NCBI GenBank assembly: GCA_012514535.1
Contig: JAAZAA010000284.1
Coordinates: 1 to 45,094, forward strand
Length of the DNA: 45,094 nt
From: Myxococcales bacterium
GTDB lineage: Bacteria > Myxococcota_A > Polyangia > Polyangiales > Polyangiaceae
Direction of reading: 5' to 3'
A program made the translations under genes and the position numbers. Each line of letters opens with the position of its first letter. Within the stretch, counting starts at the first letter, position 1. Shown piece by piece: positions 12,962 to 28,816 of this stretch. A model generated the notes under the pieces. The model did no database searches, had not been told where the DNA came from, and worked only from the letters and a program-made list of their open reading frames with translations.

Positions 12962-14680
12962 ATGGCCATGTGCGGATCCGAAGCTCAGTGGTCACCCCGG
13001 CTGGGCCGTGGGGGCCCCCGTCCCGACCCTCAGACTGGAAAGTTCGAGTCAAGGTCCCGGCTTCTCGGCCGGACAGGTGGAGCGGCCCTGCTCATCGCCG
13101 CCCTCGGTGCCTGTGAGCGCTCCCCGAGCGAGGGCGGGACCGAGGTCCCGGAGGCGGAGCAGCAGCCCACGGACGGGGCCGTCGGGCTCGCTCGCGCCAC
13201 GCCAGCTCCGGGATCGGTCGAGGAGGGCGAGCGCCGCGCAGGGCCGCCGGAGCCTCGGCACGTCCGCCTGGACGGTTCGTCGGAACCCCTGGCCGTCAAC
13301 CACGTGAGCACGGGGCCCCGGGTGTACGCCAAGAACCTCCGGGTCTGGGTCCACGAACGGCCGGACGGCAGCTCACGACGCCTGGGCTACCTGAGGGTGG
13401 GGGCGTCGTCACCGACCAGTGAGAGCGCCGCCGGGTTCGCGGGGTGCCAGGGGGGCTGGTATCCGGTGGAGCCAGCGGGGTACGTCTGCGTGGGGCGGCA
13501 AGCGACCCTCGACGGGACGGATCCCGTCGTGCGGGCCATGGAGACCTTCCGGCCGCGGCCGGAGGAGAAGCTCCCGTATCTGTACGGAACCGTCCGCAAC
13601 CCCGGTCCGGTCTTCCAGCGTCTGCCAGGCATCGAGGAGCTCCGGGAGGCGGAGCCCGACGTGGACCGACGCATGCTCGAGTGGCTCGACGCGGGGGGCG
13701 AGATCGGCGCCAGCTACGCCCAGGACGTGTGGACCTGGGGCGAACCCCCGGAGGATCCCCGGGGCGCCTGGACCGCGAAGCTGACCCGAGGTGTGCCCGA
13801 TTTCCTGCAGAACCACGGCATGGTGCCCAACCCGCACCTCAGCCCACGCCCGCCCACGCTCGTGCTCGATCGGATGCGCCCGAAGGTCGGCTACGCGATC
13901 CTCGACACGTTCCTCCACGAAGGGCGGCGGTATGGCCTCACCACGCACGCCGAGCTGGTGCCGACGGATCGCCTGCGCCCCATCCGAGGCTCGGATTTCC
14001 GTGGGGTGCGCATCGGCGAGGACGTCGAGTTCCCGTTCGCTTTCGTGCGGCACCCCGAAGCGAAGTTCGTCGACGCCTCCGGCGCCGACGCGGGCGCGGC
14101 GACGTACCGCGACGTGCTCCGCCTCACGGGCAAGCAGAAGTTCTTCGGCAAGGTCCTGCACTACGAGGTGAAGGACGGGCGCTACATCAGCGATCGTCAC
14201 GCGTCGCGGCTCGATCCCGCCAAGAAGATGCCCGGCTGGGCCAACGCGGGAGAGAAGTGGATCGACATCAACATCACGAAGCAGACGTTGATGCTCTACG
14301 AGGGGACCACGCCGGTGTACGCGACGCTCGTCTCCACCGGGGAGGCGGGCTTGGCCTCCGCCGAGACCACGACGGCCACGCGGCGGGGCATTTTCCGCAT
14401 TCATACCAAACACATCACGGCCACGATGGCCTCCAACGAGTCCGGCGAAGAGTTCGAGCTGCGGGACGTCCCCTACGTGCAGTATTTCGAGTCCGAAGGC
14501 TACGCCCTGCACGGCGCCTACTGGCACGACCGCTTCGGCATGCCCAAGAGCCGCGGCTGCATCAACCTCTCACCCGAGGACGCGCGGCGCGTCTTCCACT
14601 GGACCGACCCGCAGGTCCCGACGGGATGGCACGGCGCGCTGCTGCCGCTGCGCGGCACCGTGGTCTTCATCCACCCTTGA
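12962..14680 (+). CDS. lipoprotein L,D-transpeptidase (YkuD family)
   Basis: A 572-residue envelope enzyme expected to form 3-3 peptidoglycan cross-links or attach proteins to peptidoglycan. A hydrophobic signal and lipobox end at Cys51 (LLIAALGAC) after an unusually long 35-residue N-region. An SH3-like segment (RVYAKNLRVWVHERPDG, about 119-150) follows a disordered linker. The YkuD domain lies in the last 160 residues, with His517 (LHGAYWHD) and the SRGCINLS motif carrying catalytic Cys533. ATG at 12962 is preceded by a GGGGGGA stretch; ATG at 12968 is equally possible. It is preceded by the promoter/hairpin unit and may be regulated through it. Confidence 0.87.
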   Translation: MAMCGSEAQWSPRLGRGGPRPDPQTGKFESRSRLLGRTGGAALLIAALGACERSPSEGGTEVPEAEQQPTDGAVGLARATPAPGSVEEGERRAGPPEPRHVRLDGSSEPLAVNHVSTGPRVYAKNLRVWVHERPDGSSRRLGYLRVGASSPTSESAAGFAGCQGGWYPVEPAGYVCVGRQATLDGTDPVVRAMETFRPRPEEKLPYLYGTVRNPGPVFQRLPGIEELREAEPDVDRRMLEWLDAGGEIGASYAQDVWTWGEPPEDPRGAWTAKLTRGVPDFLQNHGMVPNPHLSPRPPTLVLDRMRPKVGYAILDTFLHEGRRYGLTTHAELVPTDRLRPIRGSDFRGVRIGEDVEFPFAFVRHPEAKFVDASGADAGAATYRDVLRLTGKQKFFGKVLHYEVKDGRYISDRHASRLDPAKKMPGWANAGEKWIDINITKQTLMLYEGTTPVYATLVSTGEAGLASAETTTATRRGIFRIHTKHITATMASNESGEEFELRDVPYVQYFESEGYALHGAYWHDRFGMPKSRGCINLSPEDARRVFHWTDPQVPTGWHGALLPLRGTVVFIHP

Positions 14681-14747: not shown

Positions 14748-15371
14748 TCAGCCCGCGGCGCCGCCGAGGCCGCCGGCCCCACCCGAGGGAGGAGCGCCCC
14801 CGCCGCCAGCGCCTCCCATGCCTGGCTCCTGGCTGGGGCAGGTGGCCGCCTCGAGGGTGAAGGTCGTCTCCGCCCGGACGGGGACGCGCTCACCGCTGGC
14901 CTCGTCCCGCACGGTGAACACCTCGCCGGTCCTGCCCTGGCGGAGCTCGGCGGTGAGGCGATAGGTCTCGTTCAGATCGAGCTCTGCCGTCGGCACGGGC
15001 ACGTCCACGGTCGCCGCGGAGCCCGTCGCCAGCTCGACCCCGTCCGCATCGAGCACGCGCGCGAAGACGAAGCCGCAGTTCGTGCTGGTCCCGCAGGTGC
15101 CCGGCGGGCGCAGCTCCCAGTCGTCCAGGCGTGAGGGGACGTCTCCGGAGGCCACGCGCACGACGAGGCGCCCGTCACAGGGCGCGGGCAGCGTGCCGCC
15201 CGGAGGGTGGCTCACCAGGCGCGTCCCGTCGTTCGCGAAGAGCTCCACGATGTCCAGCTCGGGGGGATTGGTCGTGTCGGTGGGCCCGTCCTCGTCGGAG
15301 CAGGCCGCCAGGGCGCAGGCCACCACCAAGGTCCACAGGGAGATGGCTGACAGGCGTCGTCGGAGGCTCAT
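14748..15371 (-). CDS. lipoprotein with glycine-rich tail, unknown
   Basis: A 207-residue protein with signal and lipobox ending at Cys24 (ACALAAC). The body is beta-rich and could be an Ig-like extracellular domain (DDWELRPPGTCG, ELDLNETYRLTAELR), with a few cysteines that could form disulfides. The last 25 residues are almost pure Gly/Ala/Pro. ATG at 15371 gives a compact signal peptide; the frame continues to 15410. It lies downstream of another lipoprotein and the kinase in the same orientation, so a shared transcript is likely. No known family. Confidence 0.62.
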   Translation of the reverse strand: MSLRRRLSAISLWTLVVACALAACSDEDGPTDTTNPPELDIVELFANDGTRLVSHPPGGTLPAPCDGRLVVRVASGDVPSRLDDWELRPPGTCGTSTNCGFVFARVLDADGVELATGSAATVDVPVPTAELDLNETYRLTAELRQGRTGEVFTVRDEASGERVPVRAETTFTLEAATCPSQEPGMGGAGGGGAPPSGGAGGLGGAAG

Positions 15372-15416
15372 GGGTGTGCCTGTCGTCCGTCGGAGAGGGG
15401 AGGCTGTCAAGGCACC

Positions 15417-16007
15417 TCACTCTGCGCCCGGCGGCGCCGGCAGGGCCGAGTACCGACAGAGCTTCGCTTCGAAGCGGCCCGTGAGGCGCGTGGCCGCCGT
15501 GGCGTCCTCGGAGACCCCTTGGAACGACAGGAGGCCCGTCACCCGCCCGTGGATCTTCGGCTCGAGTTCGGCGATGCGGATGGCGCCGCCCGGCGCCAGG
15601 GGGAACCCGCGCCCGGGGATGCGGACGAAGGGCAGGGCGTAGGGGGCGGCGGGGTTGCGCGGCGCTTCCCGGATCGCGTCGAGCCCTGTCCACGGATAGT
15701 CCCCCAGGGCGATGCGTTTGCCCTCGGGGACGAGCACGGACACGGTGACGACGACCTCGCCCTCGGGGGGCGGGACGAACACGTCACAGGAGATTGGGTA
15801 GGAGGCGATGGTGATCCGGAGCTCGTCTGCTTGACCGGCGAGCTCCCAGTACTCGGCCAGCGCCGTGTGGGCCTCGAAGCGGGTCGTCTCCCCGCCGACC
15901 GTCAGCTCCAGCGCAGGCTTCGGCTCCGCCTGGCACCCGAGGGTCACCAGGACGCAGGCCCACGGGAGGAGGGAACGAAGGGCGGCCGCGATCACGGGGC
16001 CACCCAT
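15417..16007 (-). CDS. lipoprotein, unknown
   Basis: A 196-residue protein with signal MGGPVIAAALRSLLPWACVL and a lipobox ending at Cys25 (VTLGC). The mature part looks beta-rich with a conserved-looking ISCDVFVPPPEGEVVVTVSV segment. ATG at 16007 is the only clear start. It is 74 bases downstream of the kinase stop and 45 bases upstream of the next lipoprotein gene, all on minus. Function not recognised. Confidence 0.62.
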   Translation of the reverse strand: MGGPVIAAALRSLLPWACVLVTLGCQAEPKPALELTVGGETTRFEAHTALAEYWELAGQADELRITIASYPISCDVFVPPPEGEVVVTVSVLVPEGKRIALGDYPWTGLDAIREAPRNPAAPYALPFVRIPGRGFPLAPGGAIRIAELEPKIHGRVTGLLSFQGVSEDATAATRLTGRFEAKLCRYSALPAPPGAE

Positions 16008-16081: not shown

Positions 16082-19000
16082 TCAGCCGGTCGCTGCCCGC
16101 CGCGCGCCCCGGAGCGGCCACGCCGCGTGGGCCACGTGGGGCATTTCTTCTCGGAAAAACGCCCGCAGCTTCGACGCCGTGGGGCGCAAGGCGGGCTCGC
16201 GACGCAGGCACGCCCCGAGCATCCGGGCGACCCGGCTGGCGATGGGCTCGCTCTCGAGCTGCGCGAGTTTGGGGGGCCACCCGTCGTGGGTCAGATGGGC
16301 GGAGACGATGGCGAGCTCGTCGGGGGCGTCGAAGAGCAGCTCGCCCGTCAACATCTCGAAGGCGAGGCACGCGAACGCGTAGACGTCTGCGGCCGGCGGG
16401 GTGGCGGAGGAGCCTTCTGGGGGCACGCCGAGCACCTCCGGGGAGGTGTACTCGAGGGTCCCGCAGCCGGGGCGGAGGTGGCGCCCGCTCAAGCCGAAAT
16501 CCACGAGCACGGGGGTGATGCCGTCCCGCAGGATGACGTTGGAGGGCTTCAGATCCAGGTGACCGACGCCGACCGCGTGCATCGCCTCGAGCCCCGCGAG
16601 GATCCCGTCCAGGTAGAGGAACGCGCGCTCCATCGTGAGGGTGTTCGAGCGCAAGATGCGATCCAGGGACGCGCCCGCGATGAGCTCCATCACGAGGATC
16701 GGCTTGGGGCGCGCGGCGAGGTCGAAGGTGACGAAGCGCGCCAGGTTCTCGTGGGCGGGCAGCGACAGCAGCGCGCCGGCCTCGTCGCGGAACATCTGGA
16801 GGAACTCCTGCTCCGAGAGGCTGCGGGCCGTCGTCGGATCGTACTCGGGCACCTTGAGGGCGAAGCTCTCGGCCTGCGGGTCGTGGCGCTCCTCCTGGCG
16901 GCGCGCCAAGAAGACCGTGCTGACGCCGCCGGCCCCCAGCGGGCGCACCACGTAGAAGGAGCCGATGGTCCGTCGTGGTAGCAGCCACGCGGGGAGGGCC
17001 GCCTTGCGGCGCTCGAGGGGCAGAGCGTGGACGTCGCTGCCGGCGTTGATGGGGAGCGAGAGCGGCCCGTCCAGCACCAGCTTGACGATCTGTCCGAGGA
17101 ACTCGGGGAGGGGATCCACCAGCGCCTGCACGGAGGAGGTCCACTGGTCGCCGTTCGGGGGCACCTCGCCGCGCACCGCCCGCTCCATGAGGGCGGAGAC
17201 GGGGACCGCGTCCGTGACCACGGCGATGTCGTCGAGCTCCATCGAGCCATCGAGCACCCGGCGCCGCGCGCTGCGCGTCAAGGCGACGAAGTCTTCGATC
17301 GTCCCCTCGAGCTCGTCGATGAGGGTCCGCCCCGTGTGGCCCGGCTCCACGAGCTCCACCTGGCCCCGCGCGGAGGCGACGCCCTCGAGCGCCCGCGCCA
17401 GCCGAAACACGACCCGCTGCAGCGCCTCGCTGCGGTATCCGCCGCCCCCGCCCAGTCCTTGGCTGAGCTGCATGACCCGGTGAGCCGCTCGCAGCGCGCC
17501 ACCGCTCGGGCTCAGGGACTGGCCGCCCTCCACCTCCAGGGCGTCGTCGGGCCCGAGCAGGCGAGCGAGGGCGCCGATGGGCCCCGACACGGACGGGTTC
17601 GTGCAGGCTTCGGCGATGGTGGCCACGGACGTGGCGTCGGCGATGCTGCTGGCGAGGACGAGGACGAGGTCGCTCGCCTGGGCCGCGCCTTCGCGCACCG
17701 CGGCGTCGAAGGAGCGCGCCAGCGTGGCGCAGAGCACCCGATGCACCGCCGGGTGGGGGGCGCTCGCCAGGCGCTCCAGCAAGGTGGCGATGACCTGGCG
17801 GAGGCGCGCCACCAGGCGTCGCTGCTCCGAATCCTGCGCCGCGGACTCGGCGTCGACCATGTGCAGCAGGACACGGAGCTTGCGCTGGTCCACCGGGATG
17901 CGCCCCGGGCTCTCGTCGCGGAGCCGAACACCGTCGAGCACCCACCGGCTCAGGCGGCTGTACAGGTACTCCATCTGCGGCACGCTCGCGTCGGATTCAC
18001 CGGGGCGGCGGCCGAGGAGGAGCAGGTTGACGAGGGTGGGACGCTCGACGGCCCCCAGATCGATGTCGTGGAGCGCGGCGAGGGCCTGGGGGAGGGACTC
18101 GGCGTCGCCGGGATCGTGGGTCTCGATGAATCCGGCGATTTGGTGGGCCTCCGCGAGGGCGGCGGAGGCGAGCTCCAGCGCCCGCTTGGCGCCGTCCGTC
18201 TCGAAGGCGAGCAGCGCCGTGCGCACCTGGAAGGAGACGCTGTTCGGATCTTCGCCGCCCGGGCGAAGCTGCCGGAGCGCCCGGGCGGTCAGCGCTCGGT
18301 GCAGGGCCGACTCTCCTTTGACGCGCTCGGCGAGGGCGTCCCGCAGAACCGCCGCGGCGGCCACGCCGAACCCTGCGTGCTGCACCTCCGTCATCAGGCG
18401 CGCGACGGCCTCAGCGACGTCGGCGCGGCGGGTCATGGCGAGGCGATCGAGGAGCTCCTCCGCTCGGTCGGGCTCGGACTCCACGACGCGGGCGAGCCCC
18501 ATGACCATCGTGGCGCTCAGGCCCGGATCTCGCACCGCGAGCTCGCTCTCCAGCACCGCACGGCAGGAGCGCAGCGTCTCCTCGTCGTTGTCGATCAAGG
18601 AGGCCACCAGGGACACCACGCCGCGTCGCCACTCGGTCGCGGAGAGGGACGGGTCCAGGGACGCGATCACCTCTTCCTTCGCCAGGGGATGGACCGAGGC
18701 GAGCAACCCGCGGGCGACCGCCGCGTGCCGCCAGACGAGGGGCTCCCGATCCATGAGCAGACGCTGGAACGTCGGGCGCAGGTCGTCTCCTCGGAGGACG
18801 TTCACCGGGCGGGTGTCGCCGAGCTGGTGGCGGACCACGGCCTCCCGCGCGGCGTGTTCGAGGAGCTGTGCGGCGAGGCGACGGGCGGGGAGCGCTTGCG
18901 TGGAGGGCTGGGTCAACCACTGGTCCCGGAGCTCGGCGCGCGTGGTGAGCGTGAGCGCGAGGGGAGCGGTGTTCGCCGTCGTCCCCACGGGGAGGTCGAA

Positions 19001-19423
19001 GCAGAGGGCGACCCGCGCCCGCATCGTCGGCGACTCCAGCGGTGACGCCGTGCCCAGCGCCATCCGGGACGCGCAGGTCACGAACGCCGTCGCCGTCCCC
19101 TCGTACAAGCGCGAGAAGACCCGTCGGCGCAGGTCGCGCTTCGTTTGCCCCGCGGGAAGACACGAGCTCAGCTCGTAGAGGGCTACTGCCGCGGAACCTG
19201 GCGCGATCCACTCCAGATCGTCCGCGAGCCCCGTCTCGATCGCCACGTGGGCCGCCCGCTCGAGCACCTGCTCGTCGAGCCCGTCGAGGGGCGGCGGCCC
19301 GAGGTTGCCCGCACTCTGGGCCAGGGCCGCGATGGCCTGCCGCCAGGTCGCCTGGCGTGAGCTCGCGGTCTCCAGGCGAGCGAGCTGGACGAGCGCCTCG
19401 GCCGGGTTGGGACGATTCCGCAT
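16082..19423 (-). CDS. large HEAT-like repeat protein with C-terminal Ser/Thr kinase domain
   Basis: A 1,113-residue protein. Residues 1 to about 800 are Ala/Leu/Arg-rich helical repeats of HEAT/ARM type, with no membrane segment seen. The kinase domain spans about 819-1095: Gly loop GAGGVSTVF, Lys857 (FALKVPE), catalytic HLDLKPSN with Asp957, DFG at Asp975 (VDFGLSG), SPE in place of APE, and DVYAFACLAFEMLTGE. All catalytic residues are present, but HLD replaces HRD, making it a non-RD kinase that may not need activation-loop phosphorylation. ATG at 19423 has GGAGGGAG upstream; the frame is open to 20476 but that part lies opposite hemH. Lipoprotein genes follow. Likely a cytoplasmic scaffold kinase; substrates unknown. 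Confidence 0.85.
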   Translation of the reverse strand: MRNRPNPAEALVQLARLETASSRQATWRQAIAALAQSAGNLGPPPLDGLDEQVLERAAHVAIETGLADDLEWIAPGSAAVALYELSSCLPAGQTKRDLRRRVFSRLYEGTATAFVTCASRMALGTASPLESPTMRARVALCFDLPVGTTANTAPLALTLTTRAELRDQWLTQPSTQALPARRLAAQLLEHAAREAVVRHQLGDTRPVNVLRGDDLRPTFQRLLMDREPLVWRHAAVARGLLASVHPLAKEEVIASLDPSLSATEWRRGVVSLVASLIDNDEETLRSCRAVLESELAVRDPGLSATMVMGLARVVESEPDRAEELLDRLAMTRRADVAEAVARLMTEVQHAGFGVAAAAVLRDALAERVKGESALHRALTARALRQLRPGGEDPNSVSFQVRTALLAFETDGAKRALELASAALAEAHQIAGFIETHDPGDAESLPQALAALHDIDLGAVERPTLVNLLLLGRRPGESDASVPQMEYLYSRLSRWVLDGVRLRDESPGRIPVDQRKLRVLLHMVDAESAAQDSEQRRLVARLRQVIATLLERLASAPHPAVHRVLCATLARSFDAAVREGAAQASDLVLVLASSIADATSVATIAEACTNPSVSGPIGALARLLGPDDALEVEGGQSLSPSGGALRAAHRVMQLSQGLGGGGGYRSEALQRVVFRLARALEGVASARGQVELVEPGHTGRTLIDELEGTIEDFVALTRSARRRVLDGSMELDDIAVVTDAVPVSALMERAVRGEVPPNGDQWTSSVQALVDPLPEFLGQIVKLVLDGPLSLPINAGSDVHALPLERRKAALPAWLLPRRTIGSFYVVRPLGAGGVSTVFLARRQEERHDPQAESFALKVPEYDPTTARSLSEQEFLQMFRDEAGALLSLPAHENLARFVTFDLAARPKPILVMELIAGASLDRILRSNTLTMERAFLYLDGILAGLEAMHAVGVGHLDLKPSNVILRDGITPVLVDFGLSGRHLRPGCGTLEYTSPEVLGVPPEGSSATPPAADVYAFACLAFEMLTGELLFDAPDELAIVSAHLTHDGWPPKLAQLESEPIASRVARMLGACLRREPALRPTASKLRAFFREEMPHVAHAAWPLRGARRAATG

Positions 19424-19461
19424 GGGGATCTCCCTCCAGTTTAAGGCCCGAGAGCGAAAAG

Positions 19462-19478
19462 CCCTAGAATTTCTAGGG
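19462..19478. promoter_or_regulatory. palindrome CCCTAGA-N3-TCTAGGG upstream of kinase gene
   Basis: Perfect 7-bp inverted repeat with an ATT spacer, centred about 47 bases upstream of the kinase start codon. It is AT-richer than its surroundings and sits where a repressor would act. Which protein binds is unknown. Confidence 0.4.
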
Positions 19479-19657
19479 TCTCGCCTCCGTTTGGGCGCAC
19501 GATGTGAGCGCGCGTCGCTGCCGATGGCGCCCGGAGCGCTGCTCGGCGGCGGGGAGCCGTGATGGGGAGTAGCGAAGGGCGCAGTGCGGCGAGGAGCGCC
19601 GGGATCCTCGGTTCGGCGACGAGGCGCCGGGCGCCCGTACGGAGGGCGCGGCGCGAC

Positions 19658-19706
19658 GACGGAGCGTGCCGCTGCCGACGGAGCGTGCCGCTGCCGACGG
19701 AGCGTG
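19658..19706. repeat. 19-bp tandem repeat, about 2.6 copies
   Basis: The unit GACGGAGCGTGCCGCTGCC occurs perfectly at 19658-19676 and 19677-19695, with a partial third copy at 19696-19706. It lies 33 bases upstream of the hemH start and could hold repeated binding sites or be a slippage product. Confidence 0.75.
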
Positions 19707-19738
19707 GTGTCGAGACGGTGTTCGGCTATAGGGGGTCC

Positions 19739-20638
19739 ATGTCGCAGCGTCCCTCCCACCCCCGCTCCGCGGTGCTCCTGCTGGCCCACGGGACGGTCCA
19801 GCACGTCGACGAGCTGCCGGAGTTCGTGCGGGTGATACGGCGGGGGGTGCCCGCGCCGGACGGGCTCCTGGAGGAGCTCCGGGAGCGATACGAGCACATC
19901 GGGGGCTCGCCGCTCCTGGACATCACCCGCGCCCAGGGGCGCGCCCTCCAGGAGGCCCTCGGCTTGCCGTGCCACGTCGCCATGCGCCTGTGGCACCCGC
20001 TCCTCGAGGACATCGCCCCGGATCTCGCCGGGGTCGAGCGGCTCTGCGTGATCCCCCTGGCGCCGTTCAGCGTGCACGTCTATCGGGCCGCCGCCGAAGC
20101 ATCCTTCGAGCGCTTCCCGGCTCCGCCGGAGCGCCTCTACGCGGGGCCCTGGGGAGAGGAGCCCGCCCTCGTCGCCGCCCACGTGCGGGCCATCCAGGCC
20201 GCCGTTCCCTCCCTCGAGGGCCACGAGATCGTCCTCACGGCGCACAGCCTGCCGCTCGCTGCCCTGCGCCAGGGAGATCCGTACTGCGTCCAGTTCGAGG
20301 CCTGCGCTCGCGCCGTGGAGCGTGCCCTCGGCAGGCGTTGTCACATCGTGTACCAGAGCCAGGGGGTCGGGGGAGGGGACTGGCTCGGCCCCGGCATCGA
20401 GGAGACCCTCGTCAGCTTGGCGGAGGTCGGGGCGGAGCGCGTCGTCGTCGCCCCGATCGGTTTCCTCGCGGACCACGTGGAGACCCTTTACGACCTGGAT
20501 GTGGCCGCGGCGGAGCAGGCGCGCTGTCTGGGGCTCGAGCTCGTGCGGGTCCCCGCCCTCAACACCGCCCCCGCGCTCATCGACGCCCTCGGCGCGATCG
20601 CGCGGCGCACCCTGGGCCTCGCCGATCCGGGTCCCTGA
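19739..20638 (+). CDS. hemH: ferrochelatase HemH
   Basis: Inserts ferrous iron into a porphyrin or coproporphyrin in heme synthesis. The 299-residue protein shows the family signature LTAHSLP with His169 and the later conserved Glu248 (ADHVETLYDLD), near the usual 310-350 length. ATG at 19739 has AGGGGG just upstream; the frame is open to 19559 but that region contains the repeat. The start of the protein (SAVLLLAHGTVQHVDELPEF) fits the family N-terminus. It opens a plus-strand run that continues with a lipoprotein and Fe-S trafficking genes. A CbiX/SirB chelatase is a less likely reading because the two-lobe ferrochelatase layout is present. Confidence 0.85.
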   Translation: MSQRPSHPRSAVLLLAHGTVQHVDELPEFVRVIRRGVPAPDGLLEELRERYEHIGGSPLLDITRAQGRALQEALGLPCHVAMRLWHPLLEDIAPDLAGVERLCVIPLAPFSVHVYRAAAEASFERFPAPPERLYAGPWGEEPALVAAHVRAIQAAVPSLEGHEIVLTAHSLPLAALRQGDPYCVQFEACARAVERALGRRCHIVYQSQGVGGGDWLGPGIEETLVSLAEVGAERVVVAPIGFLADHVETLYDLDVAAAEQARCLGLELVRVPALNTAPALIDALGAIARRTLGLADPGP

Positions 20639-20825
20639 GCAGGGCCGCCGCGGCCCCGTCGTCCCCGTGGCCCGCTCCCTCGCGGAGTACTCTCACGGAA
20701 CCCCCGTCGCCCCGTGAGCCTCTCGCGGGAGCCGGTCGCCCCACGACCCAAACCGACCGAAAGAGCGGCCCCAGGGGGCTGCGCCTACGTGCGAGGTGGC
20801 CGTCTGGTGTAAGGTCGGACGAAGC

Positions 20826-21887
20826 ATGTGGACGTTTCGCTGGCGGCGCTGGATTCTCTCGTGGGTTGCCCTGAGCGCGCTTTGCAGCCTCACGGTCTCC
20901 TGCGCCTGCGCGCGGGGTCCGGTCAACGCGAGCCCGGGACTGCGCTGGTGGCTCTTTTCCACCTTCGGGGCCAACAAGATGTGCCCGGAGATCCTGAAGA
21001 CGGGGGTGCCCCTGAAGCTCGACGGGCAGCCGAACACGATCGGGCGCTTCTTCCCCGACCAGTGTCACCACCAGGTGAACGATCAGGCGCAGACGGTGGC
21101 GCTCCACTTCGGGGGGACGGGATACGCCTGGACGCCCGTCGCCGGGCGCGTCGGCTTCCGAGCCACCGCGGCCGTGGAATACCGCATGGACTTCTACCTC
21201 GCGGAGGAGGGCATCTACGTCTGGGGCAAGCCCCACCGCATCCTCGCCGCACCCGAGTTCCAGATCGACGCCGTCGAGTACAAGGTGGTCGACTGGGCCT
21301 CCCGCACCCCCGTGGGATACATGGCGCAGACCTTCGGGGGGCAGATCATGGCGAGCCACCTCTCGAGCGGGTTCACGGTGGTCCGGACCGACTCGGGCGA
21401 TGAGTTCGCCCTCGGGCACCTGCGACCGCCCGCACGTCCCCCCAAGCCCTTCGACCTGCCCAAGGGGCGGCGCATCGTCTACGCGAACGAGAGCATCGAG
21501 GTGCGGGCGGAGCAGGTGGACTTCCTCGGCCCCTTCGAGGTGGCGGAGGAGGAGCAGGCCCTCTTCTTCCGCTTCCGTCTGACGGGACCCGCCGCCGAAG
21601 CCCTCCTCTGGCACAAGTCCGTCGCCGACATGTGGCGGCGCAACCTGCAGGTGGGTGCTCCCCTGGGCCCGCCGCCGCAGCCTGCCCTCGTGGGGATCCC
21701 GCTTCAGCCAGGGGTGCCGCAGCAGCGCAAGGTGCCCCTGCCGCCCGGGCAGTACTACCTCGTGATCGACAACAGCAGCCGCGTCGGGCAGGTGAACCCG
21801 CCCTGGAACCCCTTGAACATGGTGGGAGCCAGCGCCGCCGTCCTCGCCTACACCGCCGAGCTCGGCGACGTGGACGACGATTTCTGA
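20826..21887 (+). CDS. lipoprotein, unknown
   Basis: A 353-residue exported protein. The signal peptide is Trp/Arg-rich (MWTFRWRRWILSWVAL), with a lipobox ending at about Cys26 (LTVSC). The mature part has GANKMCPEIL and FFPDQCHHQV segments with cysteines and histidines, a beta-rich middle, a Pro/Gln-rich stretch (about 275-305) and a conserved-looking PPGQYYLVIDNSSRVGQVNPPWNP near the end. ATG at 20826 was chosen over the upstream GTG at 20796 because it directly precedes the signal. Function unknown; hemH lies upstream and bolA downstream. Confidence 0.68.
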   Translation: MWTFRWRRWILSWVALSALCSLTVSCACARGPVNASPGLRWWLFSTFGANKMCPEILKTGVPLKLDGQPNTIGRFFPDQCHHQVNDQAQTVALHFGGTGYAWTPVAGRVGFRATAAVEYRMDFYLAEEGIYVWGKPHRILAAPEFQIDAVEYKVVDWASRTPVGYMAQTFGGQIMASHLSSGFTVVRTDSGDEFALGHLRPPARPPKPFDLPKGRRIVYANESIEVRAEQVDFLGPFEVAEEEQALFFRFRLTGPAAEALLWHKSVADMWRRNLQVGAPLGPPPQPALVGIPLQPGVPQQRKVPLPPGQYYLVIDNSSRVGQVNPPWNPLNMVGASAAVLAYTAELGDVDDDF

Positions 21888-21997
21888 CGCAGACGCCGCC
21901 GGGGCGGACCTCGCTCCGCGGCGCGCGCGCCTGGAGGAACGGCAGCAGGGGGAGCGGAGCGTTGACAGGACCCCACCCGTGGGCCAGAGATCCCGCC

Positions 21998-22255
21998 GTG
22001 ATTGAACCCCAGGAAGTGGAGAAGCTGCTGGTGGCCGCGTTCCCGGACGCCCGCATCCAGCTCGAGGATTTGACGGGCACCAAGGACCACTACCAGGCGG
22101 TCATCGTGAGCTCGTCTTTCGCGGGCAAGACCCCCGTGGAGCAGCACCAGCTGGTGTATCGAGCTCTCGGCAGCGCCATGGCGGGGCCGATCCACGCCCT
22201 CGCCCTCAAGACGTACACCCCCGAGAGCTGGGCCCGCCTGCAAGAGCAGAAATGA
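21998..22255 (+). CDS. BolA/IbaG family protein
   Basis: An 85-residue protein of BolA fold that works with monothiol glutaredoxins in Fe-S cluster transfer and iron sensing. Visible family features are DHYQAVI, the invariant-type His in VEQHQLVYRALG and HALALKTYTPESW near the end. Length matches IbaG/BolA1-type proteins of 75-90 residues. GTG at 21998 gives the family start; the TTG at 21962 would add 12 residues. The CGFS glutaredoxin gene follows 130 bases downstream, the classic partner, which supports a Fe-S role. Confidence 0.85.
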   Translation: MIEPQEVEKLLVAAFPDARIQLEDLTGTKDHYQAVIVSSSFAGKTPVEQHQLVYRALGSAMAGPIHALALKTYTPESWARLQEQK

Positions 22256-22385
22256 CCGCGCCGCCCGCGCCTCGACGGCTCGGGGCGCCCCTGCGGGGAG
22301 CGGCTCCGGGCTCGAGGAGGCGGCGACGCTCAGGACAGGAAATGACCGTCAGCGCGGTCGAAGACACGACAAGGACGCCAGACAC

Positions 22386-22703
22386 ATGGACGAAGCACTT
22401 TCCCAGCGTATCCAGGGCCTGATCGAGGGGCACCGGGTGGTCTTGTTCATGAAGGGGAACAAGATGTTTCCCCAGTGCGGCTTCTCCGCGCAGGTGCTCG
22501 GCATCCTGAAGGAGGTCGGGGTCGATTTCGAAGCCCACAACATCCTGGCCGATCCCGAGCTCCGCCAGGGGTTGAAGGAGTACTCCAACTGGCCGACGTT
22601 CCCCCAGCTGTACGTGAAGGGGAAGCTGGTCGGCGGCTGCGACATCGTGACGCAGCTGTACGAGAGCGGCGATCTCGTGCCGCTGCTGCAGCAGGACGCT
22701 TGA
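22386..22703 (+). CDS. grxD: monothiol glutaredoxin, CGFS type (Grx4)
   Basis: A 105-residue protein that binds a [2Fe-2S] cluster with glutathione and passes it to acceptors, often as a complex with BolA. The active motif is FPQCGFS (Cys about 32), with WPTFPQLY and KLVGGCDI glutathione-binding segments, all typical of Grx4/Grx5. ATG at 22386 gives the full family length. It lies 130 bases after bolA on the same strand and is closed by two hairpins against the convergent efflux operon. Confidence 0.93.
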   Translation: MDEALSQRIQGLIEGHRVVLFMKGNKMFPQCGFSAQVLGILKEVGVDFEAHNILADPELRQGLKEYSNWPTFPQLYVKGKLVGGCDIVTQLYESGDLVPLLQQDA

Positions 22704-22761: not shown

Positions 22762-24390
22762 TCAGTCCCCGACGCGCCCCTCGGGGACCCGATCCCGTCC
22801 CAGGGCGTAACGGAGCCGAACCCGCGACGTGCGCGCGTCGATGTGCGCGTTGATGAGGGCGAGGCGGGCGCGGGTGAGCGCCACCTCCGCGTCGTTCACG
22901 TCCACGAGAGTCCCCTGACCGATCCGGAAGAGCTCGCGGCGTCCGCGATAGCTCTCGTAGGCTGCCGCCAGAGCTTCCTGCGCCGCGTCGAGGGTGGCGT
23001 CCGCTTCGGACACCCCTTGGGCCGCCTGGGTGACCTCCAGCCGCAGGCCCTCGATGAGAGCTCGGCGCTGGGCGCGGAGCTCGGCCATCCGCGCCTCTTG
23101 CTGGCTGGCCACGGCGTTCGCGCCGCCGATGGCCGTCGGGCGCCACGTGAGCATGACGCTCACGTCCCAGACCCCGTCGAAGCGGTTCTGCTGGGGAAAG
23201 ATCCGCGGGTTGGGGTTCGCGTAGATGTAGTTGCCCACGACGTCGAGGCGGGGGTGAGCTTCGCTCTTGGCGAGGCTCACGAGTCCCTCGATGGATTTCT
23301 CCGACTCGCGGAGGGTCTTCAGCTCGGCTCGGTTCCGCACCGCTTCCTCGAGCAGGGCCGTCGTCTCCTTGGGCACCGAGACCGCCGGGGGCGGCGCCAG
23401 CAGATCTTCGCCCACCTTGTAGACGCGATCCGGGTCCGGCTCGTAGGTGATCGTGCGGATGCGCTCCTCGGCGATGCGGGTGAAGTGCTGGGCCTGGACC
23501 GCGAGCACCTCCGCGTTCTTCGTCTGGGCGCGGGCCCCGAGCAGATCCGCGCGGGACAGGAGCCCGGACGCGTGCAGGACCTCCGCGTCCTTCTCGCGGG
23601 CCCGCATGTTGTTCAAGGACTCCTCGGCGACGATCTGTTGCCCGATGGCGCGGACCCAGTCGTAGTAGGCGATCCGAGCGTCCGCGGCGACCTTGAGCTT
23701 CGCCGCCTCCTCGTCCCAGCGAGCGGAGGCGCTCGAGTGCTCCGCGGAGCGGATCGCCGTGGTGGTGCGGTAGACGTAGTCCGACACCGGCACGCTGAGC
23801 GTCGCCTTGAACTCGTACTGGTTGAGGAGGATCGGGAACGTGAAGGGCGGCAGGGCGATGAGCTGCTGGTTGGGCGGCAGGGGCCCAGGATCCGCCGGCG
23901 CTCCCACGAGCTGCACGCCGCCACCCGTGAACTCGGGCATCTGCACCGGGCTGATCCTGGTGTAACGCGCTGAGAGCATCAGATCCGGCCACAGCCGGGC
24001 CACCGCTTCGTCCTCCTGTCCCTTGGCTCGACGGGCCGTGGCCTGACGCTGCTCCACCATGGCGCTGTGGGCGACGGCCCGGGACGCGACCTCGTCCGCC
24101 GTGAGGCCATGGCGCAGATCCGCGTGGCGCAGGAAGAGCTCGAGCCCGGGGCCCTCGTCGAATCCACCGTCGTCTTCCCGTACTCCCTCGCCCAGGGTCG
24201 TCCCGGGCGGCGGGTGAGAGGGGACGATGGGCGGGGGGACCGGTGGCTGCCCCGGGGGCATGTCGGAGGGCGCAGCGGTCTGAGCCCCCAGCAGGCTGCT
24301 CGAGCTCAGGAGGGCGCCGACGACACCGAAGCGAAGGACGCCCAGGCGGAGGGCACCGAGCCGAAGGGCAAGAGGGGATACGAAGGACAT
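22762..24390 (-). CDS. TolC-family outer-membrane efflux protein
   Basis: A 542-residue outer-membrane channel for the RND pump encoded upstream. A signal peptide (about 1-35) ending near LLGAQTA is followed by a Pro-rich stretch (about 40-65), then two long helical repeats typical of TolC (SARYTRISPVQMPEF; LMLSARY; AEVALTRARLALINAHI near the end). Length is in the family range of 420-550, with the extra Pro-rich N-terminal part. ATG at 24390 has GAGAG upstream. It is 53 bases downstream of the permease gene and is the last gene of the operon. Confidence 0.88.
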   Translation of the reverse strand: MSFVSPLALRLGALRLGVLRFGVVGALLSSSSLLGAQTAAPSDMPPGQPPVPPPIVPSHPPPGTTLGEGVREDDGGFDEGPGLELFLRHADLRHGLTADEVASRAVAHSAMVEQRQATARRAKGQEDEAVARLWPDLMLSARYTRISPVQMPEFTGGGVQLVGAPADPGPLPPNQQLIALPPFTFPILLNQYEFKATLSVPVSDYVYRTTTAIRSAEHSSASARWDEEAAKLKVAADARIAYYDWVRAIGQQIVAEESLNNMRAREKDAEVLHASGLLSRADLLGARAQTKNAEVLAVQAQHFTRIAEERIRTITYEPDPDRVYKVGEDLLAPPPAVSVPKETTALLEEAVRNRAELKTLRESEKSIEGLVSLAKSEAHPRLDVVGNYIYANPNPRIFPQQNRFDGVWDVSVMLTWRPTAIGGANAVASQQEARMAELRAQRRALIEGLRLEVTQAAQGVSEADATLDAAQEALAAAYESYRGRRELFRIGQGTLVDVNDAEVALTRARLALINAHIDARTSRVRLRYALGRDRVPEGRVGD

Positions 24391-24443
24391 GAGACTCTCT
24401 CCAAACTACGGGCAGGGCTCCGCGGCTTCGGCGCAGGCGAGGG

Positions 24444-27400
24444 TCATTCGGCGGGATGCCCCGCGGATCGTTCGGGCAACGGCGCCTCGCTCGCACCTCC
24501 CGAGTGACCGATGAGACGCCTTCCGAGTCGCCCCAGCCGCATCTTCAGGCCTTCGATGGCCAGGTAGAAGACGGGCGCGACGATCAGCGACAGCAGCGTC
24601 GAGCTGATCACACCTCCGATCACCGCGATCGCCATGGGAGCGCGGAACTCGCTGCCTTCGGCGGTGCTGATGGCCGTGGGCAGCATGCCGAGCACCATCG
24701 CCGCGCTCGTCATCAGGATGGGCCGCAGACGCTCCGGGCCAGCTTCGAGGACGGCATCGAACGGCGTATTTCCCTGCTCGCGCACGCGCACGATCGTGCG
24801 ATCGATGAGCAAGATGGCGTTCTTGGTGACCAACCCCATCAGCAGGATCATGCCGATCATGGATCCCATCGCCATGGTGTTGTTCGTCAGGAACAATCCC
24901 AGCACCGCCCCGACCATCGCCAGCGGCAGGGTGGTCATGATCGTGACCGGGTGGATGAAGCTCTCGAACTGGGACGCGAGGATGATGTAGATGAACACGA
25001 CGCCGAGGAGCAGGGCGATGCCCATGGCCTCGTTGTTCTCGTTCATCATCCGGATCTGCCCGTCGTAGGTGATGCTCGTCCCCTTGGGCAGCTCCAGGGC
25101 CTCGATCGCCGGCTGGATGTCCTCGACGATCTCGCTCAAGGCCCGGCCCTGAGGGGAGGCCCAGACCTGCACCTGCCGGCTGCGGTTCTCCCGCTCGATC
25201 ACCTGGGGCCCTTCGCCCCGGGTGAAGGTGGCCACGTCCGCGAGCCGCACCGGGCCCGTGGGCGACGTCAGGCTCAGGTTGGCGAGGTCGCCGGGGCGCG
25301 CGCGATCGTCCTTCTGCAAGCGCACCCGGATGGGGACCTCGTCCTTGCCCTGGCGTAAACGCCCGCCTTCTTCTCCTTCGATCGCGTTGCGCACGGCGAG
25401 GGCGACCTGGGCCATGCTCAGGCCCCGGTCCGCCGCCCGCGCCCGATCGACGTCGACGCGTAGCTCCGGGCGTCCAGGGGAGTACTTCACCTGGATGTCC
25501 TCCACGCCGGGCGTCTGGCTCAGGAGATTCTGCAGGGTCGTGGCGACGGGGACGATGTCCTCGTAGCTCTCGCCGCGCACGTTGATCATGATCGGCGCCT
25601 CCGTGCCCGCTCCCTCGACGAAGGGGGGCTCGGTGACGACGATCTTCGCGTGGGGTGCGGCGGTCGCCGCGGCGGTGCGAGCGGCGTCCCGGAGGTCGCG
25701 CAGAGTGACCCCGGGGCGTTCGGTCTTGGAGGTGGTGTTCACACGCCAGAGCGCCTTGTTCACCTCACCGTCGGCCCCGATCGTCGCGAAGATGGTCTCG
25801 ATGTTCTCGTTCTGGAGGAGCAGGCGCTCGGCGACCTCCGAGATGCGCGCGGTCTCCTCGAGGGCGGTGCCCGCGGGCAGCTCCATCTCGACCGCGAACT
25901 GCCCGCGATCTTCCTCGCTGACGAAGTCCGCTCCGGTGAGGGAGGAGACGAACATCATCAGGACCAAGCTCCCGATGGCGGCGAGCCCGACGATCAGCTT
26001 GTGCCGGAGCGACCACTCCAGGATCGAGCGGTAGGTGCCGTCGAGGTTGTCGAAGAACCAGCGAAACGGTCGCTTGAGCCAGGCGAAGGAGTCCACGGTC
26101 GTGTGGTCGATCGGCTTGCTGAACCGCGACGAGAGCATCGGGTCGAGGGTGAACGCCACGAACAGGGACAGGACGACCGCGGTGGCCACCGTGTAGCCGA
26201 ACTGCCGGAAGAACTGGCCGACCATGCCCTCCACGAAGGCCACGGGCACGAACACTGCGACGATGGTGCCCGTCGTCGCGAGCACGCTGAGCGCGATCTC
26301 CTTCGTGCCGTCGAGGGCGGCCTGGCGCGCCGGGACCCCTCGCTCCAGGTGTTTGAAGATGTTCTCGCGCACCACGACGGCGTCGTCGATGAGGATGCCG
26401 ATCGACAGCGACAGGGCGAGCAGGGTCATCATGTTCAGCGAATAGCCGAACATGTACATGAAGAAGAACGTGCCGATGACGCTCGTCGGCAGCGCCAGCG
26501 AGCTGATCAGGGTCGAGCGCAAGTCGAGCATGAACAGCAGCACGACCAAGATCGCCATCGAGCCACCGAAGACGAGGTCGTGCTCCACCTGCTCGACGCT
26601 GTCGCGGATGAAGCGGGACTGGTCGATGATGAGGTCCGCGCCCATGCCTTCGGGGAAGAGCGGCTCGAGGCTGGCGAGCTTCTCCTTCACGGAGTCGCTC
26701 ACGGCCACCGTGTTCTGGCCGGACTGCTTGACGACCTCGAAGGTGACGGAGGGCTTGCCGTTCACCCGGGCCAGGGCGCGTTGCTCCTCGTAGCCATCCG
26801 TGACCTGGGCCACGTCGCTGAGGCGCACCGTGGCTCCCTCGGGGCTGGTGGCGACGATCACGTTGCGGATCGCCTCGACGTCCGCGAACTCGCCGACGGT
26901 CCGAACGCTGATCTCGCGCTTGCCCTCGTCGAAGCGCCCCGCGGGGACGTTGAGGTTCTCCGCGCGCAAACGCTGGACGATCGCCCCCGGGGTGAGGCCG
27001 AGCGCGTTGATCTTGTCTCGGACGAGATCGACCTGCACCTCCCGCTTGGCCCCGCCCTGGATGTTCACGGCCGCGACCCCGGCGACCTGCTCGAGCTCGG
27101 GCTTGATCACGTCCTCGAGGAACTGCCGGGCCTGGGAGAGGGACCCGGTCGTGTTCATCGTGTACGTCAGGATGGGCGCGGAGCTGACGTCGAAGCGCAG
27201 GATGCTGGGCTCCTCGACCGCGTCCGGCAGCTTGTAGCGGATCCCGGCGACGCGCTCGCGCACCTGCGTGGCGGCGTCGGAGATGTCGACCCCCAGCTTG
27301 AAGAGGACGATGGTCTGCGACACCCCCTCGCGGGAGAAGGAGCGCACCCGGTCGATGCCGTTCAAGGAGATGACGGAGTCCTCGATCGGCTTGGTGACGA

Positions 27401-27584
27401 GGTTCTCCACCTCCTGGGGACCGGCTCCCGGGTAGGGGACGCTCACCATCACGACGGGGAACGACACGTCCGGGAAGAGGTCCGTGCCGAGCCGTTTGAA
27501 CCCGAACCACCCGAGGACCACCAGCGCCACCATCAACATGACGGTGAACACCGGGCGCTTGATGGCGACTTCCGAGAGGGTCAT
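24444..27584 (-). CDS. RND efflux permease (AcrB/HAE type)
   Basis: A 1,046-residue inner-membrane proton-driven exporter, the normal length for the family. The start [22 protein letters not shown], the TM4 proton-relay pair in [12 protein letters not shown], the [12 protein letters not shown] porter segment and the conserved end of the second membrane half ([16 protein letters not shown]) are all seen. The two Asp favour the multidrug (HAE) rather than the heavy-metal branch. The gene overlaps the adaptor gene by ATGA and is followed by tolC, so a complete tripartite pump is encoded. The substrate is not predictable. Confidence 0.95.
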
Positions 27585-28816
27585 GGGGCGCTCCGGACGA
27601 CGTCGCCGCTCTTGGCTTCCGGCCAGGGTTCGGCGACCACGGCCTCCTCCACCTTCACCCCGCGGCGGACGAGCAGCGCGCCATCCTCGGCGATCTCGAA
27701 GGAGATGCGCCGACCGACGAGCTTGTCGTCCTCGACGACGAAGATCTCGTCCTGGGTCCCGGGCTTGAGCACCGTGTGGGGCAGGCGGACCACCGGCACC
27801 GGCTCCGTGCCGGTCACGCGCGCGCGGACCAGGGTGCCGGCGATGAGCCCGCTCCCGTCGGTGTTCTCGATCACCGCCTGGACGGGCACCCGCTTGGTCG
27901 ACTCGTCGAGGGCCGCGACCACCGCCGTGACCTTGCCCTGGGCCGCGGTGCGCCCACCCGCGAGGATCTCCACCTCGGCGCCGACCCGCACGAGGTCGGC
28001 GTCATTGCTGGAGACGCTCCCGACGAGCTTCAAGCGGCTCAGGTCGGCGATGTGGAACAGGGGGACCCCGGGGGACACCACCGCGCCGGTGCCCTCGGGG
28101 GCTCGGGTGACGGTGCCGTCGAAGGGAGCGACGATCGCGTGGTTCGCCAGGTTCTGCCGAGCCAGGACGAGCTGCGCGGCGGCGCCGTCCCGCTGGGCCT
28201 CGGCCAAGGAGCGCTGCTGCGTCGCCTGGACGCCGAAGCTCTCCGGCTGAACACCTTCGCGCACGACCCGCTGGGTGCGCGTCTCGGAGTCCTTCGCCAA
28301 AAAGAGCTGCGCCTCCGCGGCGCGCAGCGCGGCCTCGGCGGACTTCACCTGAGCGGCGGCCTCGCCCGCGTCGAGGCGCGCCAGGACCGCGCCCCGCTTG
28401 ATCCGATCGCCGACGGCGACCTCGAGGCGCGCCAGGCGCCCGCTCACCTTGAAGCCGAGCTCCGCCTGCTCGACGGCCTGCAACGTCCCCTCGAAGACCA
28501 CGGTCGGGAGCGCCGTCTCGGCGGTGCCGCGGACCACGGCGACGCGACGCGGCTCCGTCGCGATCTGCTTGGCTCGTGCGGCGACCGCGTCCCGAGCGAC
28601 GGCGACCTCCGCCTTCTCTTCGACGGCCTCGCTCACCCGGAGCCCGATCCAACCGAGCACGGCGACCGAGAGCAGCCCGACGACGAGCTTCCCATGGCGA
28701 AAACCTTGAGCGGTCCCCGTGGGAGCGCCTTCCTTGGCGCGGGTTGCCGACGGCGAGGCTCCGCGGGTGTCGTCCTCCGGCGGGGGGGTGGTGAGAGCGG
28801 GACCTGGCTGTGTCAT
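27581..28816 (-). CDS. RND periplasmic adaptor (HlyD/AcrA family)
   Basis: A 411-residue membrane-fusion protein linking the RND permease to the TolC channel. It has a cytoplasmic N-terminal tail of about 40 residues, one membrane anchor (LVVGLLSVAVLGWIGL), a lipoyl half-motif GFKVSGRLARLEVAVGD, an alpha-hairpin (AEAALRAAEAQLFLAKDSE), the second lipoyl half AIVAPFDGTVTR, and beta-barrel and membrane-proximal parts. It is anchored by a helix rather than a lipid. ATG at 28816 follows CGAGG and overlaps the tetR stop, placing it second in the operon. Confidence 0.93.
   Translation of the reverse strand: MTQPGPALTTPPPEDDTRGASPSATRAKEGAPTGTAQGFRHGKLVVGLLSVAVLGWIGLRVSEAVEEKAEVAVARDAVAARAKQIATEPRRVAVVRGTAETALPTVVFEGTLQAVEQAELGFKVSGRLARLEVAVGDRIKRGAVLARLDAGEAAAQVKSAEAALRAAEAQLFLAKDSETRTQRVVREGVQPESFGVQATQQRSLAEAQRDGAAAQLVLARQNLANHAIVAPFDGTVTRAPEGTGAVVSPGVPLFHIADLSRLKLVGSVSSNDADLVRVGAEVEILAGGRTAAQGKVTAVVAALDESTKRVPVQAVIENTDGSGLIAGTLVRARVTGTEPVPVVRLPHTVLKPGTQDEIFVVEDDKLVGRRISFEIAEDGALLVRRGVKVEEAVVAEPWPEAKSGDVVRSAP

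Follow-up and report, generated by a model that had tools for sequence, protein, structure and literature searches.

A conserved Polyangiales protein kinase with a predicted N-terminal alpha-solenoid and an HLD catalytic motif

Can a helical scaffold alone control a protein kinase that lacks the arginine which normally reads a phosphorylated activation loop? The question is raised, and offered for testing in a bacterium, by a gene at positions 16082 to 19423 of contig JAAZAA010000284.1 from a member of the Polyangiaceae; 'the window' hereafter denotes the whole stretch of DNA that was analysed, 45,094 nucleotides in length. To our knowledge, few myxobacterial kinases have a known role, and a kinase whose architecture has been retained across most of an order makes a good starting point and probably does something basic. 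Its interest rests mainly on this conservation and on a form of loop-independent control that can be tested. An earlier note on this gene had proposed about 800 helical residues ahead of an intact kinase domain, with HLD in place of HRD and with no visible membrane helix, and each of these points held up. The open reading frame starts with an ATG at 19423 on the minus strand, its stop codon ends at 16082, and the main parts are as follows:

16082..19423, minus strand: whole gene, 1113 amino acids, alpha-solenoid plus C-terminal Hanks kinase (orthologues aligned full length, end to end)
19431..19437, minus strand: Shine-Dalgarno-like GGAGGGA, 7 bases 5' of the ATG (read directly)
16991..19423, minus strand: predicted N-terminal alpha-solenoid, residues 1-811, well predicted to ~790 (AlphaFold2; weak HEAT/ARM-type neighbours; no Pfam family)
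16166..16951, minus strand: protein kinase domain, residues 825-1086 (PF00069, E 5e-31; fold match to PknB)
16553..16561, minus strand: HLD catalytic motif, residues 955-957 (29/29 orthologues)
16436..16501, minus strand: DFG-to-PE activation segment, residues 975-996 (22 residues in 29/29; invariant R981, R984, C987, T989)
16115..16120, minus strand: C-terminal Trp-Pro, residues 1102-1103 (invariant in 29/29; also 3/4 TerB sister kinases and 6/6 family-f15 copies read)

The Pfam family Pkinase (PF00069) matches the C-terminal part with 108.5 bits against a curated cut-off of 31.7, which identifies a Hanks-type Ser/Thr kinase, and the nearest solved structures are PknB and StkP by sequence and PknB/PknA by fold. 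Alignment of the orthologues (n=29, including two truncated by contig ends) revealed that the five core residues, i.e. the catalytic Lys (K857), the alphaC Glu (E881), the HxD Asp (D957), the Asn (N962) and the DFG Asp (D975), are invariant in all 29 sequences, as are two glycines of the glycine-rich loop and DFG as a whole. The residue preceding the catalytic Asp is Leu in every orthologue, which places the protein outside the RD kinases. The activation segment follows the pattern DFGL[SA]GRx[LIV]R[PH]GC[GAT]T, and Y992 is invariant as well, whereas none of its positions ahead of GT/AT holds a conserved Ser/Thr across the 29 orthologues. One orthologue (L058) reads HLDLTPSN and has thus lost the Lys of the catalytic loop, the sole such case. 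There is no evident membrane helix: hydropathy over 19 residues peaks at 1.83 (residues 586-604), in a stretch that spans two helices of the solenoid.

As a yardstick, we compared the kinase with others of the source genome (assembly of 5.77 Mb in 442 contigs, 98.8% complete), which has 89 Pkinase matches. The comparison covers 54 distinct motif-bearing frames from 71 loci, or about two thirds of the kinome (a few of the 89 matches being split ones); kinases whose motifs are unusual fall outside it. The HxD motif reads HRD in 50 frames, HGD in three and HLD solely in the window kinase, whose DFG-to-PE segment of 22 residues is the shortest of the 49 that could be measured (next 26, median 31). 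More than 700 residues precede the HxD motif in two frames, the window kinase and one other, these lengths being upper bounds since each frame was taken from its first start codon. That the kinase domain comes last had been presented as unusual for bacterial Hanks kinases. The position itself is confirmed, but the trait is not rare in this genome, 10 of the 54 frames having at most 200 residues past HxD. A search of the genome with the N-terminal part of the window kinase gave a single match.

What is this N-terminal part? AlphaFold2 modelling of residues 1-811 (27 aligned sequences) yielded a mean predicted local distance difference test score of 87.8 and a predicted template modelling score (pTM) of 0.87, and the model contains 42 helices of at least four residues but lacks strands of three residues or longer; an all-helical structure is predicted with good confidence up to residue ~790. 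A Foldseek search with the model returned karyopherins, FANCI/FANCD2, SF3b and similar proteins (best E 1.4e-3, none below 0.001). VIA-align placed SCC2 on top (Z 9.6, 245 residues aligned, root-mean-square deviation (rmsd) 6.2), followed among others by importin alpha, CAND1, Kap121 and the PP2A scaffold, and cautions that such scores commonly arise between helical repeats. These neighbours are mostly HEAT/ARM-type proteins, and the matches are weak. Pfam gave no match in residues 1-811 of the window protein at E 0.05, and just two weak single-member matches in the N-terminal parts of 27 orthologues, one being LRV_2 in 1/27. Because Pfam offers no credible match in this region, 'HEAT-like' cannot be demonstrated by sequence. 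A profile search against the sequences of solved structures provided nothing usable (best E 0.08), and profile-profile comparison of 120-residue segments for internal repeats reached a probability of 38% at best (segments from residues 1 and 481). Of the HEAT-like repeats in the earlier note, none emerged in Pfam, in the profile search or in the profile-profile comparison. The prediction supports a HEAT/ARM-like alpha-solenoid as the fold type, with structural scores that are usual among helical repeats, and without membership of a named repeat family; repeats, if present, lie beyond the sequence methods used.

On average the solenoid is less conserved than the kinase part (mean conservation 0.52 vs 0.69). 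It nevertheless includes a patch, residues 226-240, with a mean identity of 0.90, next to 0.88 for the catalytic loop (952-966) and 0.91 for the activation segment. Two motifs stand out in the orthologue alignment:

18704..18751, minus strand: solenoid motif DREPLVWRHAAVARGL, residues 225-240 (invariant L229, V230, W231, A235, R238, G239)
18611..18634, minus strand: second conserved solenoid motif EWRRGVVS, residues 264-271

Further information came from four kinases of ~700 residues encoded in three genomes (L272:2667-4745, L273:2017-4200, L274:1625-3670 and L275:2524-4629). Like the window kinase, all four possess the C-terminal part of the solenoid, HLD and the short loop, aligning with the window family from residue ~500-586 almost up to the C-terminal end, and three of them end in Trp-Pro. 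Unlike the window kinase, they carry at the N-terminus a Pfam TerB domain (above cut-off, E 3.8e-7 to 2.5e-8), which stands in for residues 1 to ~500-585. As these sisters keep the last part of the solenoid together with the kinase, the front appears exchangeable: the constant unit is the last solenoid part, the linker and the kinase, and what precedes it varies. The varying front supports reading it as an input module. Small TerB-like proteins close to the domain of the sisters occur in many members of the order, mainly in the family of the window, with one in its own genome. A second copy of solenoid residues 1 to ~708 was seen at L276:2314-4431 (G043:C354) in a frame without a kinase, which may be cut at the end of its stretch.

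How widely is the gene kept? PMC2887360 describes myxobacterial kinomes as among the largest in bacteria and repeats that their synteny is poor. In a set of 59 related genomes that includes the source genome, 53 matched the N-terminal part at E <=0.001, some weakly or in fragments (G024 and G042 are examples), and G024 was without a match in later searches of the order and class. For comparison, the non-kinase part of an HGD kinase of the source genome (L203) matched 39/59 genomes, in families f1 and f8 only and with E up to 1e-30, and that of another kinase (L209) matched 8/59, namely the source genome plus seven matches that are weak or incomplete. The window kinase is kept more widely than both; two controls make a small sample, however, and inside the family L203 is also well conserved. 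In the order, 114 of the 132 genomes at least 90% complete have an N-terminal match, several of these being pieces at contig ends; it is absent from all ten genomes of family f6 and from eight of the family of the window. Class-wide, 182/317 genomes match, 26 of them outside the order (16 in family f15, and 10 in f20 that were counted by match alone). The f15 copies that were read, six in number, share HLD, the short loop and Trp-Pro; the APE of other members is AAE or ANE in them. A draw across the phylum found matches in 35/282 genomes, all 35 in the order, which had initially suggested an order-specific family; this idea was withdrawn in view of the 26 other genomes of the class. Two peptide patterns, run against the GTDB representatives, led to 141 confirmed loci, and the titles of 80 name, among others, Polyangiaceae, Sorangium, Polyangium, Minicystis (Polyangiales, Polyangia, Myxococcota), Labilithrix, Sandaracinus and Myxococcales or Deltaproteobacteria bins. 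Outside the class no copy was seen, either in the even but thin phylum draw of 282 genomes or in the titles of these 80 of the 141 loci.

The kinase-domain phylogeny that the earlier note had called for was obtained as a quick tree of 95 rows, in which the ten sampled orthologues form one clade with a Shimodaira-Hasegawa-like approximate likelihood ratio test (SH-aLRT) support of 100, set apart by a long stem (1.76 changes per column). The kinase profile was also searched against 28 genomes (16 order members without an N-terminal match and 12 genomes elsewhere in the class), where matches at E <=1e-25 reached 116 bits at most. Thirty loci saved from these genomes contain 31 motif frames, 27 with HRD, two with HCD and two with HLD. 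The two HCD kinases (L241 and L246, family f6) form one well-supported pair in the tree. In G135, a relic of the gene in a short open frame (L271:7643-8077, G135:C117) joins residues 801-874 directly and in frame to 1043-1104, so that the catalytic loop is gone, which points either to gene loss through a deletion or to a misassembly.

What, then, may the protein do? We propose, at evenly balanced chances, a soluble and probably active Ser/Thr kinase whose N-terminal alpha-solenoid serves as an input and docking module. The proposal draws on what can be read in the sequences, namely the architecture, its conservation, the core catalytic residues, HLD, the fixed short segment and the sister form with another N-terminus. 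Loop-independent control is suggested because the RD arginine is missing, the loop is short and its length constant, and no conserved phospho-acceptor precedes GT/AT. Without the normal reader of a phosphorylated loop, and with so short a loop, the kinase may be held near its active state, and control would be exerted through the solenoid, by binding of a partner or ligand, rather than by loop phosphorylation. The conserved LVWRH/EWRR patch is perhaps the site of such binding, and the conserved linker, the C-terminal solenoid part and the Trp-Pro tail could couple the scaffold to the kinase. Several observations weigh against this proposal. S979 of the window protein is a possible phospho-acceptor, although it is Ala in 19/29 orthologues; the full-length model (pTM 0.69) leaves the placement of the solenoid relative to the kinase uncertain, and coupling is not visible in it; the TerB sisters that were read come from just three genomes. 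Moreover, the two HLD kinases found in G187 and G013 have segments of 35 residues, i.e. HLD without the short loop, and are placed elsewhere in the tree, and therefore HLD alone does not define the family. Finally, the plant non-RD kinase EFR is reported to be controlled by loop phosphorylation nonetheless (PMC8463890). Alternatively, the protein could be a conventional autophosphorylating kinase that lost the HRD arginine by chance and kept loop activation, with the solenoid serving for localization only. The closeness of its kinase domain to PknB, StkP and PknA and the invariance of T989 and Y992 are in favour of this, but the lack of a conserved loop Ser/Thr before GT/AT and a segment of 22 residues in all 29 orthologues are not, and we regard it as unlikely. 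A pseudokinase-like signalling hub, in which the scaffold is essential and catalysis dispensable, could account for the catalytic-loop lysine missing from L058; it is quite improbable given that all 29 orthologues retain the five core residues and that the kinase part is better conserved than the solenoid.

Two further explanations concern the surroundings of the gene and its database matches. Downstream and in the same direction lie two lipoprotein-like genes, which the earlier note had located correctly:

15417..16007, minus strand: putative lipoprotein, 196 amino acids (relative in 12/76 kinase loci, window included; no Pfam match)
14748..15410, minus strand: second putative lipoprotein, LAAC lipobox by eye (relative in 3/76 kinase loci, window included; no Pfam match)

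The note had also hinted at a link between these genes and the kinase. That kinase and lipoproteins act together in envelope signalling would agree with their adjoining position on one strand here and with the recurrence of the first lipoprotein, but a relative of it was not found in 64/76 loci, some of them cut short downstream, and elsewhere the next genes are by eye of other kinds or on the opposite strand. We consider such a partnership improbable to a similar degree as the pseudokinase hub: the hinted link is unsupported beyond close relatives, and the two lipoproteins are not general partners of the kinase. Least probable is a role in anti-phage defence as a kinase like mad6 of MADS or PD-T4-6. 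PADLOC does report mad6 (E 5.5e-39) and PD-T4-6 (E 1.2e-36); however, the matched stretch is essentially the kinase domain (residues 800-1104), the NCBIfam model MAD6 (NF047741) gives 98 bits against a cut-off of 460, and a gene that occurs in 114 of the 132 order genomes does not show the patchy distribution of a defence gene.

How does the kinase compare with known systems? PknB has the kinase first, followed by a membrane helix and PASTA domains, and carries HRD. The window kinase has the catalytic fold in common with PknB/PASTA-type Hanks kinases, its best solved-structure matches by sequence and fold, but it reaches 90.4 bits against the cut-off of 450 of the PASTA-kinase family NF033483 and has no membrane-like stretch, and so is not a member. 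PknG is soluble and non-RD, and its order is rubredoxin-kinase-TPR with the solenoid after the kinase, a comparison made by description only. It is a bacterial kinase bearing an alpha-solenoid, and is counted among HEAT-type solenoid proteins in a table of PMC3837014. PknG was not among the matches listed (60 of 1346) when the kinase domain was searched against solved structures. PI3K-related kinases such as mTOR and ATM combine a long N-terminal HEAT scaffold with a C-terminal kinase. Chains of both are among the structural neighbours of the solenoid (mTOR complex 1: Z 7.8, rmsd 32.9, 343 aligned; ATM: Z 7.4, rmsd 8.1, 234 aligned), tied with many unrelated helical repeats. Their kinase domain is PI3K-like, whereas that of the window kinase is PF00069; it is not a member, and the resemblance is one of working principle. 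A bolder version of our proposal is rather doubtful: the protein might represent a convergent bacterial counterpart of the PI3K-related scaffold-kinase design, a near-core Polyangiales regulator that two further families of the class also possess. Its large solenoid would sense partners and so switch a Hanks kinase which gave up loop phosphorylation, and this solenoid could be swapped for a TerB stress-type domain.

Repeat domains such as TPR and WD40 are common on bacterial Ser/Thr kinases of planctomycetes and others, as stated in PMC11032199 and PMC2877116. The kinases of PMC11032199 carry their repeats at the C-terminal ends, unlike the N-terminal solenoid described here, and the word 'HEAT' does not occur in the main text of PMC2877116. 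The earlier note had allowed for many characterised homologues of the same architecture; homologues are indeed many, but keyword searches of the open-access literature found no characterised one and no description of the scaffold kinase, which the kinome survey of Perez et al. 2008 (PNAS) may list. The window kinase is thus an apparently undescribed variant among bacterial Hanks kinases, of which forms with TPR or WD40 arrays are already known.

The neighbouring genes were also considered as a guide to kinase function and rejected as such: kinase-overlapping frames aside, no cluster of neighbouring open reading frames covers more than 19/76 loci. All these counts are lower bounds, as contig ends truncate many of the kinase loci. 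At other loci the gene following the kinase looks by eye alpha/beta-hydrolase-like, encodes a CxxC protein, is of another kind or is missing on that strand. Relatives of the divergent upstream gene, a ferrochelatase according to Pfam, occur at 12/76 loci, those of the gene at 20796-21887 at 11/76 and those of the L,D-transpeptidase-like gene at 12962-14680 at 16/76 (window counted), nearly all at the loci of closer relatives. Between the kinase and the ferrochelatase gene lies a perfect 8+1+8 palindrome, CCCTAGAAATTCTAGGG (19462-19478), whose 15-base core, at <=2 mismatches, matches the window once vs 0.02 expected. It was rejected as an operator: 0/11 upstream regions of orthologues carry it, and across 296 loci its 13-base core appears only in three copies of the window. 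Several orthologue starts (e.g. L012, L014 and L018) seem by eye to be preceded, at a distance of 10-20 bases, by a TAnnnT-like -10 element, as in leaderless transcripts. Farther away, the window holds on the plus strand (19559-22703) a row of ferrochelatase, a gene without assignment, BolA and glutaredoxin, i.e. a heme/iron-sulfur set, and on the minus strand (22762-28816) a resistance-nodulation-division (RND) efflux set of outer-membrane channel, AcrB-type pump and HlyD-type adaptor.

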